Assembly (NCBI RefSeq): GCF_007954275.1
Contig: NZ_VOLT01000010.1
Span: 1 to 64,000, forward strand
Reading direction: 5' to 3'
Origin: Colwellia demingiae
GTDB lineage: Bacteria > Pseudomonadota > Gammaproteobacteria > Enterobacterales > Alteromonadaceae
DNA: 64,000 nucleotides
The translations under genes were made by a program, and so were the position numbers. Of the stretch, positions 40,164 through 48,328 are shown piece by piece (position 1 is the stretch's first letter; each line of letters starts with the position of its first letter). The notes beneath the pieces were generated by a model that did not search any database, had not been told where the DNA came from, and saw nothing but the letters and a program-made list of their open reading frames with translations.

Positions 40164-41231
40164 CTAAGCAGTTTTCTTCCCAATAAAATACCAAGCAATA
40201 CCAACAAAGAACAAACTCGGCATCATAGCCCCAAGTATTGGTGGTAATTGATAGACCAAACTCAATGATCCTAATACTTCATTACTAATAAAAAATAGAA
40301 TGCCCGTAAAGACGCCCATCATAATGCGCGCGCCCATCGACACTGAACGTAAAGGACCAAAAATAAAAGAAAGTGCCACTAAAAGCATTACCGCAACAGT
40401 TAATGGCTGCATTATTTTTCGCCAAAAAGCTAGCTTATAACGACTAGGATCTTGTTCATTCGCTTCTAAGTAATCTAAGTAATCAATCAAGCCTCTTAAA
40501 GAAAGTGACTCAGGGGTAACGGTTACTACGCCAAGCTTTTTCGGTGTTAGCGAGGAGTTCCAAATTTTTTGACTATGGCTTTTAATGATAATTTCTTTAT
40601 CAGTTAAGGAAAACTCCTCAACATCAGTCAATAACCAGCTTTTATCTTGATAAATTGCACTTTTCGCCGAGAGCCAACTATCAATTTTTAATTCATCATT
40701 GAAGCCATAAATTTGTACTTTCTTTAATTGACCTCTGTCCAGCACTTCACCAATATTAACAAAGTAATCACCATCTTTAGCCCAAACACCATTTTTAGCG
40801 GCAATTAAACTTCCTCCTGAAATTGCTTGAGCGCGTATTTCACGCGCTTTCGCCTCACCACTTGGCGCCAACCATTCACCAATGGCCATACTAACGATAA
40901 TCAATAAAACAGCCGTTTTCATCACCGACTTAATAATATCTAATCGCGATAAACCTGCGGCTTGCATTACAATGAGTTCACTATTACTTGCTAACATGCC
41001 GATACCAATTAAGCCGCCAATAAGTGCTGACATAGGGAAAAATACTTCCACATCGCGTGGCACGGCATAAAGCACATATAATGCGGCATGGGCTAGATCA
41101 TAATTACCTCGACCTATAGCGCGCATTTGCTCAACAAACTTAATAATGCCACTGACACTAACAAAAACAGCCAAGGTAATAAAAGTAGTAGAGGCAATAA
41201 CACGACCAATATAAAAATCAATAATGCGCAT
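40164..41231 (-). CDS. lptG: LPS export ABC permease LptG
   Basis: 355 aa, six-span permease of the LptB2FG complex that extracts lipopolysaccharide from the inner membrane. Marks: FVSVSGIIKFVEQMRAIG, LIGIGMLASNSELIVMQAAG (coupling helix region), MAIGEWLAPSGE, a periplasmic jellyroll and SFIFGPLRSVSMGARIM. Normal length. The start ATG overlaps a TAA (TAATG) of an upstream 44-codon frame instead of lptF itself, because the region is triplicated (see 41231-41499). Confidence 0.96.
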   Translation of the reverse strand: MRIIDFYIGRVIASTTFITLAVFVSVSGIIKFVEQMRAIGRGNYDLAHAALYVLYAVPRDVEVFFPMSALIGGLIGIGMLASNSELIVMQAAGLSRLDIIKSVMKTAVLLIIVSMAIGEWLAPSGEAKAREIRAQAISGGSLIAAKNGVWAKDGDYFVNIGEVLDRGQLKKVQIYGFNDELKIDSWLSAKSAIYQDKSWLLTDVEEFSLTDKEIIIKSHSQKIWNSSLTPKKLGVVTVTPESLSLRGLIDYLDYLEANEQDPSRYKLAFWRKIMQPLTVAVMLLVALSFIFGPLRSVSMGARIMMGVFTGILFFISNEVLGSLSLVYQLPPILGAMMPSLFFVGIAWYFIGKKTA

Positions 41232-41365
41232 TAATCACCCTTAACTTGTTCAAAAAATCTCACCACACCACTCACACAGCTACCGACAAAAACAGCCAAG
41301 GTAATAAAAGTAGTAGAGGCACTATGATGAGTAAAGCGACCAATATAAAAATCAATAATGCGCAT
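41231..41365 (-). CDS. 44-codon frame, tandem copy of the lptG start (copy 2)
   Basis: Starts MRIIDFYIGRFTHHSASTTF and ends VVRFFEQVKGD; it matches the first ~36 residues of LptG (shared MRIIDFYIGR, ASTTFITLAVFV, then FxEQ). Its stop and the lptG start share TAATG. Same 135-base length as copy 3. One predicted membrane span. Too short for usual gene calls. It may be a leftover of tandem duplication kept in frame for translational coupling, or a small membrane protein. Confidence 0.55.
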   Translation of the reverse strand: MRIIDFYIGRFTHHSASTTFITLAVFVGSCVSGVVRFFEQVKGD

Positions 41366-41499
41366 TAATTGCCCTTAACTTGTTCAATAAATCTAATGAC
41401 AACACTCAAGCAGCTACCGATAAAAACAGCGAGTGTAATGAAAGTCGTTGAGGCACTATGATAAGTAAAGCGACCAATATAAAAATCAATAATGCGCAT
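41365..41499 (-). CDS. 44-codon frame, tandem copy of the lptG start (copy 3)
   Basis: Starts MRIIDFYIGRFTYHSASTTF and ends VIRFIEQVKGN, the same length as copy 2 and about three-quarters identical. Its ATG overlaps the lptF stop (TAATG), and its stop overlaps the copy-2 start. Substitutions between copies are mostly conservative (H/Y, V/I, D/N), which fits drift under some coding constraint. Expressed only if ribosomes reinitiate along the chain. Confidence 0.55.
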   Translation of the reverse strand: MRIIDFYIGRFTYHSASTTFITLAVFIGSCLSVVIRFIEQVKGN

Positions 41500-42665
41500 T
41501 AACTTTCTTTTCCTTCAGTCGTTTTTTTAATCGATTTTCGTTTGAAACTCGGTAATTTTGCTTTGATAATTCGCCCACTACTACGCTCTTTCATTAATAA
41601 CATCATCCCAATAAACAAAGCACTGATATGTATGGGCCACAAGCCAACAACACTTGGAATGGCGTTCTTTTCAATAGCTGAGCGCATTGAAGTTAATAAT
41701 AATAAATACCCTAAAAATAACATCAAGGCCGGCAGCATTTTGGCAAACTTACCCTGCCTTGGATTAACCACACTTAACGGCACGGCAATAAAAATTAGAA
41801 TAATACAGGCTAAAGGAAAAGCGATACGCCATTGAATTGTAGCCCGGTACGCTGACTCTAGCTCTGGAGGCATATTGTTATACAACTCGAGCGTAGTTAT
41901 CGCACTTAGTTTACGGTGTTGATGTTCTACTTCTTGGTCTTTAATTTGAATATAATACTTGGTAAACGCCACAGATTGGAATTCTTTACTCTCTATATCT
42001 CTATGGTAACGAATGCCATCACCAAGCACTAACTGCTGGGAGCCAGAATCATCTTCAAAAACCTTGCCTGTTTTTGCGTACACTAAACTTGAGTTAATAA
42101 TGCTGGCATCAACATTGTCACCTTTAGGTAACTGAGCAACAAAGACTTTATTGAAACTATTGGTTTCTCGGTCTTTATCATGAATAAAAACTACCGCATC
42201 TTGATTTCCTGTTTGCTGGAAACGCCCAGAAACTAAGGCACTTAGACCCGAATCTGCCGCAAGTTCTTCTTTAACTTTATATTGATATTCGGAGGCTAAC
42301 GGCGCTAGGTATAGAGTAAAAATTCCGGTAAAAATAGCCGTAATAATCGCGAGCACCAAAGTCACTCTCACCACATACCATTCACTAACACCACACGCGT
42401 GCAACACAGTCATTTCACTGTCTGCATAAATACGTCCATAGGCGAGTAAAACGCCTAGGAATAAGCTAAGGGGTAATATAAACCCCGCAAGATCTGGTAT
42501 TTTCAAGGCAATGAAAGTCATTACCAATTGCCCCGGTATACTTCCTTCTGAAGCATCACCGAGTACACGGACAAATTTTTGACTGATAAAAATAGTCATT
42601 AACACAAAAAATACTGCTAATTGCGTTTTGGCGACTTCTTTTAATAAATAACGAAAAATGATCAC
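41499..42665 (-). CDS. lptF: LPS export ABC permease LptF
   Basis: 388 aa from the GTG at 42665, which gives MIIFRYLLKE as in other LptF and has GGGA eight bases upstream; the longer opening adds 15 unrelated residues. Marks: FVRVLGDASEGSIPG, LPLSLFLGVLLAYGRIYADS then EMTVLHACG, and the C-terminal spans. Partner of LptG; lptB is not in the window. Divergent from pepA, the usual order in gammaproteobacteria. Confidence 0.95.
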   Translation of the reverse strand: MIIFRYLLKEVAKTQLAVFFVLMTIFISQKFVRVLGDASEGSIPGQLVMTFIALKIPDLAGFILPLSLFLGVLLAYGRIYADSEMTVLHACGVSEWYVVRVTLVLAIITAIFTGIFTLYLAPLASEYQYKVKEELAADSGLSALVSGRFQQTGNQDAVVFIHDKDRETNSFNKVFVAQLPKGDNVDASIINSSLVYAKTGKVFEDDSGSQQLVLGDGIRYHRDIESKEFQSVAFTKYYIQIKDQEVEHQHRKLSAITTLELYNNMPPELESAYRATIQWRIAFPLACIILIFIAVPLSVVNPRQGKFAKMLPALMLFLGYLLLLTSMRSAIEKNAIPSVVGLWPIHISALFIGMMLLMKERSSGRIIKAKLPSFKRKSIKKTTEGKES

Positions 42666-42902
42666 AAAAAGATCCCGTATAAACTTAGTTTTTTTCTGAC
42701 ATAATGGCAATTATTGAGTAAACTTGTCGTTTTCATAAGTAAACTATATAGTCAGTGACTAACTCATATTGATGAGTGCGACTATAATTATAGCCCTTAG
42801 CGATATCAATTGAATAGACAAGAGTGCTATTTTTTACTTATTTTAGCAATATATGCAATATATTCTAAATAAACACCTTATTAAATTGTAAAAGGAAAAG
42901 TC

Positions 42903-44408
42903 ATGGAGTTCAGTGTAAAAAGCGGCAGTCCAGAAAAACAACGTAGCGCTTGTATTGTTGTAGGTGTTTTTGAACCACGCAGACTTAGCGGTACAGCCGA
43001 ACAGCTTGATGAAATCAGTGAAGGCTACATAAGCAACCTTTTACGCAAAGGCGATTTAGAAGGTAAATCAGGACAGATGTTATTATTACATCACGTGCCT
43101 AATATTTTAAGCGAGCGTGTTTTATTAGTAGGTTGCGGTAAAGAGAGAGAGCTTGATGAACGTCAATATCGTCAAATAATTACCAAAACAATTAACACCT
43201 TGAATGAAACAGGTTCTATGGAAGCCGTATGCTTCTTATCTGAGTTACATGTTAAAGGTCGTGATATTTACTGGAAAGTTCGCCAAGCTGTTGAAGCAGC
43301 ACAAGATGTCTTATATAGTTTTGATAGTTTAAAAACTCGTAAAGCTGAGGCTCGTCGTCCTTTACGTAAAGTTGTTTTTAATGTGCCAACTCGCCGTGAA
43401 CTGCCTATTGGTGAACGCGCCGTTAGTCATGCCTTAGCCATTTCTGAAGGTATTACTACCTGTAAGAATGTAGCTAACATGCCACCAAACATTTGTAATC
43501 CAGCTTATCTTGCTGAACAAGCCAAGATTCTTGAAAATGATTATGACAAAGTTACAACAACGATTGTTGACGAAAAAGAAATGGAAGAGCTTGGTATGGG
43601 TTCATACTTAGCTGTTGGTCGTGGTTCAGTAAATGAATCTTTAATGAGTATCATTAAATATGACGGTGCCGGTGATGATTCAAAGCCACTAGTATTAGTG
43701 GGTAAAGGTTTAACTTTTGACAGTGGTGGTATTTCATTAAAACCTGGCGCAGGCATGGATGAAATGAAATATGACATGGGTGGTGCCGCAGGTGTATTAG
43801 GTGCTATGCATGCTCTGGTCGAACTTAATTTACCTATTAATGTTATTGGCGTTTTAGCTGGTTGTGAAAACATGCCAAGCAGTAACGCATATCGCCCAGG
43901 TGATATATTAACAACTATGTCTGGTCAAACTGTTGAAGTACTTAATACTGATGCTGAAGGCCGTTTAGTTTTATGTGATGCACTTACCTATGTTGAACGT
44001 TTTAATCCTGAAGCGGTTATTGATGTAGCCACGTTAACTGGTGCTTGTGTCGTTGCTTTAGGCGCACATGCAACAGGCTTGCTAAGTAGTCATAATCCAC
44101 TTGCTCATGAGTTATTAAATGCTTCAGAGCAAAGTGGTGACAGAGCATGGCGTATGCCGTTATGGGATGATTATCAAGATCAACTTGAAAGCCCATTTGC
44201 TGACTTTACCAATTTAGGTGGTAAAGAAGCAGGAACGATTACAGCAGCTTGTTTCTTATCGCGTTTCACCAAAAAATATAATTGGGCGCATTTAGATATT
44301 GCTGGTACAGCATGGCGCAGCGGTAAAAATAAAGGCGCAACGGGTCGTCCCGTAAGTATGTTAACGCAGTTTTTACTTAATCGTGCTGGTCAAGAACAAG
44401 GCGAGTAA
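42903..44408 (+). CDS. pepA: Leucyl aminopeptidase (cytosol aminopeptidase, PepA)
   Basis: 501 aa hexameric M17 enzyme that removes N-terminal residues and, in E. coli, also binds DNA (Xer, carAB). Two-metal site marks: [17 protein letters not shown] (Lys, Asp), [11 protein letters not shown], and the signature [24 protein letters not shown] before the ATG. Length as usual. Followed by a repeat element. Confidence 0.97.
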
Positions 44409-44428
44409 ACTGCTACAGTAGATTGATA

Positions 44429-44694
44429 TATACCCGTTCCACTTGAAGATGCATGATTCAGCTGGAATTAGAAACGCCTTTAGGCAAGGCATTGATATTG
44501 AGAATGGTTGTTCCCTTCTCAATATCAATAACGCAGCATAAAGCGTTTCTAAACCAGCCCCTTGGAGAAGGCTGGGCAAATCATACTCTGCGTTACATTT
44601 CTTTTTAAGGGAATAACCCTTAATAAAAAAATGTGCCTTAATTATGAATCGCTCAGACTTCCTGAAACGAGCATCTTCAAGTGGAGCGGGTATA
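44429..44694. repeat. 266-bp MITE-like element with 11-bp target duplication
   Basis: Ends TATACCCGTTCCACTTGAAG… and …CTTCAAGTGGAGCGGGTATA: 24-bp terminal inverted repeats with one mismatch. It is flanked on both sides by the perfect direct repeat GTAGATTGATA (44418-44428 and 44695-44705). No transposase reading frame. A shorter relative is at 62368-62496. It occupies most of the 44409-44767 gap; the remainder holds the hairpin below. Confidence 0.8.
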
Positions 44695-44713
44695 GTAGAT
44701 TGATATAAAAAGA

Positions 44714-44746
44714 TTAACCCCTAGTAGTTCTACTACTAGGGGTTAA
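44714..44746. terminator. 14-bp perfect hairpin before holC
   Basis: TTAACCCCTAGTAG and its complement around a 5-base loop. No T-tract beyond the arms, so it may terminate pepA transcription, stop convergent reading, or act in the holC leader. Confidence 0.5.
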
Positions 44747-44767
44747 TGATTACAATAGGCCAATAAA

Positions 44768-45238
44768 ATGCAAACCCAAGTAATGTTTTATCTACTTAAG
44801 GATGATGGAACAGACGAGACAGAAAAAGAGTCCCGCTCTGCGATTTATCATGCTTGTTTGCAAGCCAGTTATTTTTATCGACAGAATCAGCGTGTCTATA
44901 TTTACGCACAAGACCAGCAACATGCTGAGCAAATTGATGAAATGCTTTGGGCATTTGATAGCGATAGTTTTGTACCACATAACCTAGTTGGTGAAGGTCC
45001 AAAGCAAGGCGCTATGGTGGAAATAGGTTATCAAGTACCACAAGGGCGTCGTCCTGTGCTTATTAACCTCAATAGTGCAGTGCCTAACTTTGCCAATCAA
45101 TTTCAATTCATCGTTGATTTTGTACCCAGTGATGAAACACTTAAACAACAAGCGAGAGAACGCTTTAAAACTTGCCGTCAATGGGGTTTTCAAGTTGATA
45201 ACCAAGCGGTAACTGTGTCAGAAGAAGCCATTAAATAG
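44768..45238 (+). CDS. holC: DNA polymerase III chi subunit
   Basis: 156 aa (E. coli 147). Links the clamp loader (via psi) to SSB. Marks: MQTQVMFYLLKDDGTDETEK (typical FYLL start), then RVYIYAQDQQHAEQIDEMLW, DSFVPHNLVGEG, and RPVLINLNSAVP. Classic order pepA-holC-valS. Confidence 0.95.
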   Translation: MQTQVMFYLLKDDGTDETEKESRSAIYHACLQASYFYRQNQRVYIYAQDQQHAEQIDEMLWAFDSDSFVPHNLVGEGPKQGAMVEIGYQVPQGRRPVLINLNSAVPNFANQFQFIVDFVPSDETLKQQARERFKTCRQWGFQVDNQAVTVSEEAIK

Positions 45239-45454
45239 CGACTACTATTTATACAGGGCTAGCACAAAAACAAACAAGAAAATGAAGACGAACACAAAAA
45301 ACTAATTCAATAAACGTTGCATTTTACTTTGCTGCATTTTTACTTTGTTGAACTTTTACTAGTGAAGCGTATAGATGACTTAACTGATAAAAAGTACTGA
45401 AGAACAGTGCCGTAACAAAACAACGAACAACTATTAAACCTATTACCGGATAAA

Positions 45455-48328
45455 ATGATGGAAAAAACCTTTAACCCTACCGACATTGAACAGTCCCTTT
45501 ATACTAGCTGGGAAGAGCAAGGTTACTTTAGCCCTACAGGTGAAGGTGACAGTTACAGCATTGCTATTCCACCACCGAATGTTACTGGTAGCTTACATAT
45601 GGGTCATGCTTTTCAGCAAACCATCATGGATACGCTTATTCGTTACCAACGCATGCAAGGTAAAAATACCTTATGGCAAACAGGTTGTGACCATGCAGGT
45701 ATAGCAACACAAATGGTTGTTGAACGAAAAATTGCTGCTGAAGAAGGTAAAACTCGACATGACTATGGTCGTGAAGGCTTTATCGATAAAATTTGGGAAT
45801 GGAAAGAAGAGTCTGGCGGCACCATTGGTAAACAAATGCGTCGTTTAGGTAATTCTATCGATTGGACTCGTGAACGTTTTACGATGGATGATGGTATGTC
45901 TGAAGCGGTACAAGAAGTATTTGTACGCTTATTTGAAGACGATTTGATTTATCGTGGTAAACGCCTTGTAAACTGGGATCCAAAATTCCATACCGCTATT
46001 TCTGATTTAGAAGTAGAGAATAAAGACAAAAAAGGCCACATGTGGCATTTGCGTTATCCCTTAGCTAACGGTGCGAAAACAGCAGAAGGTCTTGATTATT
46101 TGGTTGTAGCGACAACACGACCGGAAACTATGCTTGGTGATACTGGCGTTGCAGTAAACCCAGAAGACCCTCGCTATAAAGACCTAATTGGCAAGCAAGT
46201 ATTATTACCGTTAGTAAACCGATTAATTCCTATTGTTGGTGATGACCATGCCGATATGGACAAAGGCACGGGTTGTGTAAAAATCACCCCTGGCCATGAC
46301 TTTAACGATAATGAAGTAGGTAAACGTCATCAATTACCACAAATCAACATTTTTGATAAAGACGCTGCAGTATTAGCCGCCGCTGAAATTTACGATACTA
46401 AAGGTGAAGCATGTAACGCGTACGATGCTGAATTACCCGCTGAGTTTGCTGGTATGGACCGATTTGTCGCTCGTAAAGCTATCGTCGCTAAATTTGACGA
46501 ATTAGGTTTATTAGTTGAAGTAAAAGATCATGACTTAGTTGCACCCTATGGTGATAGATCTGGCGTGATCATTGAGCCCCTTCTTACTGACCAGTGGTAT
46601 GTTCGTGTTGAAAAACTAGTAGGTCCTGCAGTTGACGCTGTAAAAGATGGTCAAATTGAATTTGTACCTAAGCAATATGAAAACATGTATTTCTCTTGGA
46701 TGAACAACATTCAGGATTGGTGTATTTCACGCCAACTGTGGTGGGGACATCGCATCCCTGCTTGGTATGACGAAAACGGTAAAGTATATGTAGGTCGCAC
46801 CGAAGAAGAAGTCCGTGCTAATAACCCTATTAGCGATGACATGAAGCTACGTCAAGATGATGATGTACTTGATACCTGGTTCTCATCTGCTCTTTGGACG
46901 TTCTCAACGTTAGGCTGGCCAAAAGAAACTGAAGATTTAAAAACCTTCCACCCTACTGATGTATTGGTGACAGGTTTTGATATCATTTTCTTCTGGGTTG
47001 CCCGCATGATTATGATGACGATGCACTTCAACAAAGATGAAAATGGTAAAGCACAAATACCTTTCAAGAAAATCTACATGACCGGCCTTATTCGTGATGA
47101 AAATGGCGACAAGATGAGTAAATCAAAAGGTAATGTGGTTGATCCATTAGACATGATTGATGGTATCTCTCTTGAAGACTTATTACAGAAACGAACGGGT
47201 AATATGATGCAGCCTAAGTTGGCTGCTAAAATTGAAAAGCTTACCAAAAAAGAATACCCAAATGGTATTGAAGCTCATGGTACTGATGCGCTTCGTTTTA
47301 CTTTAACGTCTGTTGCAACAACTGGCCGTGATATTAGCTGGGACATGAAACGTCTTGAAGGGTACCGTAACTTTACCAATAAGTTATGGAATGCTAGCCG
47401 ATACGTGATGATGAATACCGAAGAATTTGATTGCGGTAGCTCTTCATCTTTAGGAACAGCAGGCGAAATGGAATTATCACTTGCGGATCGTTGGATCATA
47501 GGTCAATTCGAGCAAACTGTAAAAACGGTTCATGAAGCCTTTGATACTTATCGTTTCGATCTTGCCTCACAAGCTTTGTATGAATTTACCTGGAACCAAT
47601 TCTGTGATTGGTATTTAGAGCTTACTAAGCCAGTATTATTTAAAGGTAATGAAGCGCAACAACGTGGAACTCGCCATACCTTAGTAAACGTTCTAGAAGC
47701 TTTATTACGCTTGATGCACCCTATCATGCCGTTCATTACTGAAACCATTTGGCAGCGTGTGCAGCCATTAAGTGATTTTAGTAAAAATGGTGATTCAATT
47801 ATGGTTCAAGCTTTCCCACAATTTAACGAAAGCAATTGTGACCAGCAAGCCATCGACGATTTAGAGTGGGTTAAACAGTTTATCATTGCCATTCGAAATA
47901 TCCGTGGTGAAATGGATATATCGCCAAGTAAAGAATTGCCAGTATTGCTTAAGAATGTAAATGAAAACGATCAACGTCGTTTAAATGAAAATGAACAATT
48001 CTTAAGTTCACTAGCGAAACTTGAAAGCATTACCGTGTTAGCCGAAAATGAACAAGGTCCAGCGTCAGCATCGGCTGTAGTTGGCGATTTATCAGTGCTT
48101 ATACCAATGGCAGGTTTAATTGATAAAGAAGCTGAACTGGCTCGTTTAGATAAAGCGATGGACAAGCTTGAAAAAGACGCAGCGAGAACACGTGGCAAGC
48201 TTAGCAATGACAATTTTGTTGGTAAAGCACCAGCAGCTGTTATTGATAAAGAAAAAGCGAAACTAGCGGAAGCTGAATCTGCATTGGTTAAAATGCAAGA
48301 GCAAAAAGATCAAATTGCTGCGCTTTAA
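45455..48328 (+). CDS. valS: Valyl-tRNA synthetase
   Basis: 957 aa class I synthetase. HIGH-type [12 protein letters not shown] near residue 45, [12 protein letters not shown] near 550, editing domain [18 protein letters not shown]-terminal coiled coil ([20 protein letters not shown], residues about 892-911). Two adjacent ATGs at the start; either is possible. The space before it (217 bases) shows no distinct feature. Confidence 0.98.

Follow-up and report, generated by a model that had tools for sequence, protein, structure and literature searches.

The closest described counterparts of the locus analysed here are gene pairs translated by termination-reinitiation across a 1-nt TAATG overlap (Huber et al., PMC6728339, PMC10666635). 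As described in the portions of these reports used here, such pairs consist of two full genes with one overlap, they carry a Shine-Dalgarno (SD)-like sequence inside the upstream frame, and they encode subunits of one complex. In the same portions, reinitiation in E. coli pairs requires an overlap or a very short distance, has almost disappeared at +38 nt and needs no more of the upstream gene than its last 15 nt (PMC10666635), and removal of the SD sequence reduced it in four of five pairs (PMC6728339). The lptF–lptG junction of Colwellia demingiae, which joins two essential genes of lipopolysaccharide transport and is found in the 64,000-nt stretch of DNA that we analysed (the window), resembles them: it has the same overlap, an SD-like sequence lies within the frame upstream, and both products belong to one complex. 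However, it contains more than one copy of the overlap and of the gene start, giving three consecutive overlaps that run via two mini-frames.

Three other kinds of system bear a partial likeness to this locus. In partial tandem gene duplications, units follow one another head to tail and break where a short sequence is shared; the Colwellia unit has this arrangement too, its breakpoint being at a Gln codon. Unlike such duplications in general, its breakpoints straddle a stop/start overlap, so that every copy forms a closed frame and supplies the coupling site anew, in several species. In Salmonella, an intergenic short ORF reportedly controls a downstream Mg2+ transporter gene (PMC8092293). 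The Colwellia mini-frames are also short frames just ahead of a gene, but each is a copy of the start of that very gene, and no aborting or sensing feature was seen in them. MicroProteins correspond to a truncated form of a larger protein and interfere with the complex to which that protein belongs. A Colwellia mini-peptide would similarly be a truncated piece of a complex subunit; unlike a microProtein, the mini-frame of the 134-bp type shows no detectable constraint on its 3' half and is known here from sequence alone.

Structure of the junction

On the minus strand, the gene order is lptF, two mini-frames of 44 codons each, and lptG, and these are linked by three TAATG stop/start overlaps, in all of which the last A of the stop codon is also the A of the ATG. 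The lptF gene (41499–42665; PF03739 profile match, 242 bits) probably starts with the GTG at 42665, the longest open frame beginning with a TTG at 42710. Its stop codon and the start of mini-frame 1 (41365–41499) overlap at 41497–41501, the stop of mini-frame 1 and the start of mini-frame 2 (41231–41365) at 41363–41367, and the stop of mini-frame 2 and the start of lptG at 41229–41233. The lptG gene (40164–41231; PF03739 profile match, 280 bits) is intact and has 355 codons. An AAGGG sequence stands ahead of the second overlap at 41372–41376, and an SD-like AAGGG, located in the tail of mini-frame 2, is found upstream of lptG at 41238–41242. All these features are on the minus strand, the reading of which confirmed the chain of two in-frame mini-frames between lptF and lptG that the initial annotation had described.

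Both mini-frames have the same layout: the start of lptG with a 9-nt and a 6-nt insertion, followed by an lptF-like tail, VKGN; mini-frame 1 has counterparts in relatives. Alignment with lptG places the 9-nt insertion, which lptG does not have, within codons 11–15, FTYHS in mini-frame 1 (41455–41469; the exact placing is ambiguous) and FTHHS in mini-frame 2 (41321–41335). In the whole window, Tandem Repeats Finder reported a 134-bp period at 41203–41502 (2.2 copies) with a score of 481, and the four other repeats that it listed scored 53–59. The unit had been said to be present three times. Two full copies are indeed there, but the lptG start falls short of a third one because it is devoid of both insertions and diverges past the Gln codon where the mini-frames change over to the lptF-like tail. 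The two mini-frames share an identical run of 36 nt and differ at 17 of 135 nt; the 15 codons affected correspond to 7 amino-acid changes and 8 silent ones. A pairwise search matched a mini-frame to the lptG start with 70% identity (E 3.7e-8), and three mini-frames compared with Pfam had no family match at E≤1 and no match to the PF03739 profile.

Several other repeats occur upstream of lptF in the window. An element of about 290 bp at 44414–44707 contains inverted arms of 33 nt (88% complementary) and, further inside, an inverted pair of 40 nt, and direct repeats of 17 nt are present at its two ends; judging by this layout, it looks like a MITE-like insertion. It sits between an M17 aminopeptidase gene (42903–44408) and a frame of 156 amino acids (44768–45238). 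An inverted repeat with perfectly matching 16-nt arms and a 3-nt loop lies at 44713–44747, just ahead of the latter frame, and a tandem repeat with a 16-bp unit (2.8 copies, 45318–45360) is found between this frame and the one at 45455–48328.

Distribution among relatives

The tandem-copied junction is not unique to this genome and recurs in other Colwellia bacteria of cold seas. The genus set comprised 39 genomes, of which 38 had a match and G011, where no LptG was found, was not counted. Mini-frames are present in eight of the 38, with 12 copies in all: two each in G000 (the genome of the window), G022, G014 and G005, and one each in G009, G019, G029 and G023. In the other 30 genomes, lptF is joined directly to lptG with a spacing of −4 to 0 nt. 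The number of copies is therefore 0 in 30 genomes, 1 in four and 2 in four. The carriers appear to include Colwellia sp. TT2012, C. marinimaniae MTCD1 and Colwellia MAGs, among them DT_22, DT_17 and ALOHA_DT_125.

This survey also bears on whether the repeats could be an artefact of assembly or sequencing. The copies are not identical to each other, and the same structure occurs in seven other genomes, including that of G009, which is a single contig of 5,373,180 bp. Hence, an assembly error is very unlikely; nothing was found in its favour, and we consider this explanation refuted for practical purposes.

Outside the genus, a composite mini-frame query run against 295 family genomes gave no second match in any of the 279 non-genus genomes, although 20 of these had no match even to lptG, and divergent copies could thus have been missed. 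As a control that is free of sequence similarity, we compared the gaps between the two PF03739 matches. Of 77 family genomes examined (only two of them from this genus), 76 had matches, and 74 had two on one contig among the matches listed (not G044 and G067). The gap was 68–131 nt in 73 of them and 378 nt in G000, again among the matches listed. At the class level, 71 of 75 genomes had matches, and 63 entered the comparison after G000, six genomes with matches on different contigs and the broken G348 had been set aside; G330 and G361 have two pairs of matches, and one pair was counted for each. The gap in these 63 genomes was 26–226 nt. No exact 15-nt repeat was present in the four wide-gap junctions that were validly read; G382, with a 142-nt gap and a partial match, is outside this set. 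A search of open-licence literature by titles and abstract openings returned no description of such an arrangement.

The units are present in hadal piezophiles. Piezophily was considered as the trait behind them and rejected, as C. piezophila (G007) has no units and a genome that, judging by its size, fits the piezosensitive strain 34H has one.

Origin of the repeated unit

All copies share the order of lptG start, 9-nt insertion and a tail matching the last lptF codons. Aligned with lptG, each mini-frame corresponds to the first 35 lptG codons plus the 9-nt in-frame insertion around codons 11–15, and the 134-bp type has the further 6-nt insertion. Beyond the Gln codon, the mini-frame departs from lptG, ending in VKGN or similar before the stop. 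The lptF end of G005, CAAGGTAAGGGTAATTAATG, is identical to the tail of the mini-frames in G014 and in G005, and, except for its first codon, it also equals the lptF end of G014. The insertion and the tail are present in all 11 open copies, and the single frameshifted copy, that of G023, has both of them, with a 1-nt deletion at the insertion.

Most simply, these sequence features would be explained by one old tandem duplication spanning the overlap of the lptF stop and the lptG start. In such a duplication, lptG would have been joined at its codon 35 to one of the last codons of lptF, both of them Gln codons. The original unit would then have been about 119 bp long and would have contained the last lptF codons with their SD-like sequence, TAATG and the first 35 lptG codons. 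The lengths agree: 35 codons, 4 codons and TA make 119 bp, which becomes 128 bp with the 9-nt insertion and 134 bp with both insertions. Since the overlap and the SD-like sequence would be carried within the unit, coupling would have survived without any further assumption.

In a tree of lptF and lptG (41 rows, with the duplicated part removed), the carriers do not form one clade. G014, G005, G022, G029 and G023 make up a clade consisting of carriers only, whereas G000 and G009 group with two genomes that have no unit and G019 groups with three. Four changes of state are needed, and three of them are forced by well-supported branches. The shared insertion and tail, taken together with the scattered positions on the tree, point to one origin followed by losses, transfers or both.

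In some species, the copies resemble the neighbouring lptG more closely than expected from the divergence of lptG itself. To the right of the insertion, only 3 to 8 of 69 nt separate those of G014 and G005 from the lptG of the same genome, whereas a comparison of the lptG of these two genomes with that of G022 and G029 gives 12 to 15 differences. This suggests that the copies of G014 and G005 have been homogenised with lptG by recombination that spared the insertion. The copies of G022 and G029, at 13 to 21 of 69 nt from their own lptG, carry no sign of it.

The 9-nt insertion in codons 11–15 (loci L001 and L005–L010) is itself conspicuous, as it is kept in every open mini-frame despite flanks that look homogenised in some species. 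A search for its template in the G000 window and in the ~3.1-kb locus of the six other carriers of open copies found, beyond the mini-frames, only two sites, with 3 mismatches. The insertion pattern TTTACTYATNNTAGYGC was matched in 17 of the 39 genus genomes. In seven of them, which are mini-frame carriers, the match is at the mini-frames; the other ten have one match each away from lptFG, nine on other contigs and one, in G020, about 190 kb off on the contig that holds lptFG. With the pattern reversed as a control, two genomes had a match, a number that the ten non-carriers exceed. The scar of a mobile or integrated element was also considered as a source of the unit and rejected: there was no phage match, none was confirmed in viral contigs, and the plasmid search gave a single 66-nt match, to lptF. 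In G005 (L010), lptF contains, about 70 nt ahead of its stop, a head-to-tail repeat of the 15-nt sequence AAACTACCTAGCTTT.

Selection on the mini-frames

The claim that the mini-frames stay open extends to the relatives: 11 of the 12 copies in the eight genomes are intact, and in no copy does the frame stop before the lptG start. Frameshifts and stops in relatives, which the initial annotation had regarded as counter-evidence, came down to one copy, the G023 mini-frame with its 1-nt deletion. The shifted frame overlaps lptG by 14 nt while the TAATG sequence is still there, and exact coupling may therefore be dispensable. For the 153 substitutions inferred by a model, 3.5 stops before lptG are expected under neutrality, and the probability of finding none is 0.03. 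With the lower bound of 91 substitutions, it becomes 0.12, which makes the open-frame statistic weak.

Codon models were applied to the 11 open copies (the frameshifted one was dropped) and to 16 lptG starts. The dN/dS was 0.25 for the former and, over the shared codons, about 0.04 for the latter; pooled pairwise counts gave 0.36 and 0.07, respectively. The 128-bp type as a whole had a ratio of 0.27 and the 134-bp type one of 0.30, the latter being composed of 0.10 in the 5' half and 1.04 in the 3' half (codons 26–44 of five copies; log-likelihood −199.54, compared to −199.55 when omega was fixed at 1 and kappa at 2, hence no gain). The five codons that hold the insertion have undergone at least two, three and one changes at the first, second and third codon positions, respectively. 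Unfortunately, the purifying signal of the 5' half is confounded by the likely homogenisation: it cannot simply be read as constraint on a peptide, because this half is the most similar to lptG and homogenisation would give the same signal. As far as these ratios go, the mini-peptides look only partly constrained.

A functional product would be a small membrane peptide, of which the initial annotation had spoken; in the reading considered here, it would have a helix like LptG TM1 and would sit at the gate between LptG TM1 and LptF TM5, where the LptC helix binds, or compete for it. The conserved N-terminal half (dN/dS of 0.10, subject to the above caveat) and the retention of the insertion between homogenised-looking flanks are in its favour. 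So is the location of the LptC helix at the TM1G/TM5F gate, although in the published structure, as far as the portion of the report used here describes it, LptC contacts LptG TM1 via one residue only (PMC6744409). However, the neutrally evolving 3' half of the 134-bp type contains much of the would-be helix. The peak 19-residue hydropathy ranges from 1.10 to 2.39 in the 11 open copies compared to 1.76–2.05 in 41 LptG N-termini, the helix of G029 is weak, and no Pfam family was matched. The two copies of the window do differ mostly conservatively, as had been stated, with their seven changes falling mostly among hydrophobic residues, but this does not hold across relatives, some of whose copies have charged or polar residues in the would-be helix (charged ones in G022 copy 1). 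The proposal is thus weakened, and we consider such a peptide quite unlikely.

The same data could describe a purely neutral, drifting repeat, the deletion of which has not yet become fixed and which is open by chance. The 3' half of the 134-bp type evolves as a neutral sequence would, one of the 12 copies is frameshifted, the stop test ranges from 0.03 to 0.12 only, and the scattered distribution requires several losses or transfers. Nevertheless, the repeat spans lineages in which the synonymous divergence of lptG starts exceeds 1 in several pairs, it is present in the window despite the identical 36-nt run, which should favour deletion, and the signals ahead of lptG described below are found in every carrier. 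We regard an entirely neutral repeat as improbable.

Proposed coupling across the junction

In all eight carriers, lptG is preceded by TAATG and by a sequence of the AAGGG or AGGGG type, which lies inside the upstream frame, as in termination-reinitiation pairs. The spacing that characterises these pairs, an overlap or about −8 to +10 nt, was found at the three junctions of the window and at the junctions of the seven relatives with mini-frames, the G023 mini-frame being frame-shifted. The energy of the SD-like duplex before lptG, calculated with what we take to be the anti-SD sequence, is −4.9 to −6.6 kcal/mol in the eight carriers, which is within the range of −3.0 to −10.0 kcal/mol of 33 junctions that have no mini-frame. 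Other regulatory elements were not apparent. Promoter-like sites over 41100–42800 occur at the level of shuffled sequence (6 vs a mean of 5.7), which does not support an internal promoter in the mini-frames, and the only such site on the minus strand is inside lptF. There was no Rfam match at E≤1 in 41000–42900, and RNA folding around the start sites had no usable pattern.

We lean towards the explanation that the unit is a relic of duplication that acts as a ribosome relay and that the peptide is a by-product. A ribosome would finish lptF, restart on each mini-frame in turn and restart again on lptG; such stepwise restarting is possible because every copy carries its own stop/start overlap. 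The mini-frames would be kept open since an internal stop would break the coupling of LptG, which belongs to an essential complex. A stop within a mini-frame would put lptG up to ~130 nt from the last terminating ribosome, and thus the frames would be held open, if by anything, for the passing of ribosomes, the peptides themselves being by-products. The weak open-frame statistic, the G023 frameshift and the dN/dS ratios below 1 obtained for all sets other than the 3' half of the 134-bp type, which could stem from constraint on the peptide, count against this reading. Furthermore, a direct tandem repeat is expected to be lost easily, and its persistence hints at a benefit, which also counts against a mere relic.

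One such benefit would be a tuned reinitiation ladder, in which each additional stop/start step loses ribosomes, LptG is lowered relative to LptF, and the number of copies is selected as the setting. The copy number does differ between species (0, 1 or 2), and the unit persists in all five members of one clade. The only measured support is a slightly weaker average SD-like duplex, about −5.6 kcal/mol in the eight carriers compared to −6.3 kcal/mol at the 33 junctions with no mini-frame, but this difference is slight, and the values of the carriers fall within the range of those junctions. Ribosomes lost could be replaced by de novo initiation, and no lifestyle matches the presence of the unit. 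In addition, LptF and LptG belong to one and the same complex, LptB2FGC, according to the portion of the structural report used here (PMC6744409), and a shortage of LptG would thus have no obvious use. Selection for such a setting is unlikely, though by no means far-fetched. In a more elaborate and rather unlikely version, gain and loss of the unit would be an adaptive heritable dial that sets the number of reinitiation steps from LptF to LptG, and the retained 9-nt insertion would prevent the mini-peptide from being toxic as a mimic of LptG TM1.

Implications

The relay reading, which we favour, involves no new kind of system: the arrangement combines the known coupling by overlap with partial tandem duplication, and it is a natural experiment. 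Related genomes provide a natural series of 0, 1 and 2 extra stop/start steps between genes of one complex, with which the loss at every reinitiation step, and any compensation by the cell, can be tested directly. The locus also illustrates that, when a tandem duplication spans an overlap, an essential operon can gain closed mini-frames and stay intact; new small genes could arise in this way, among others.
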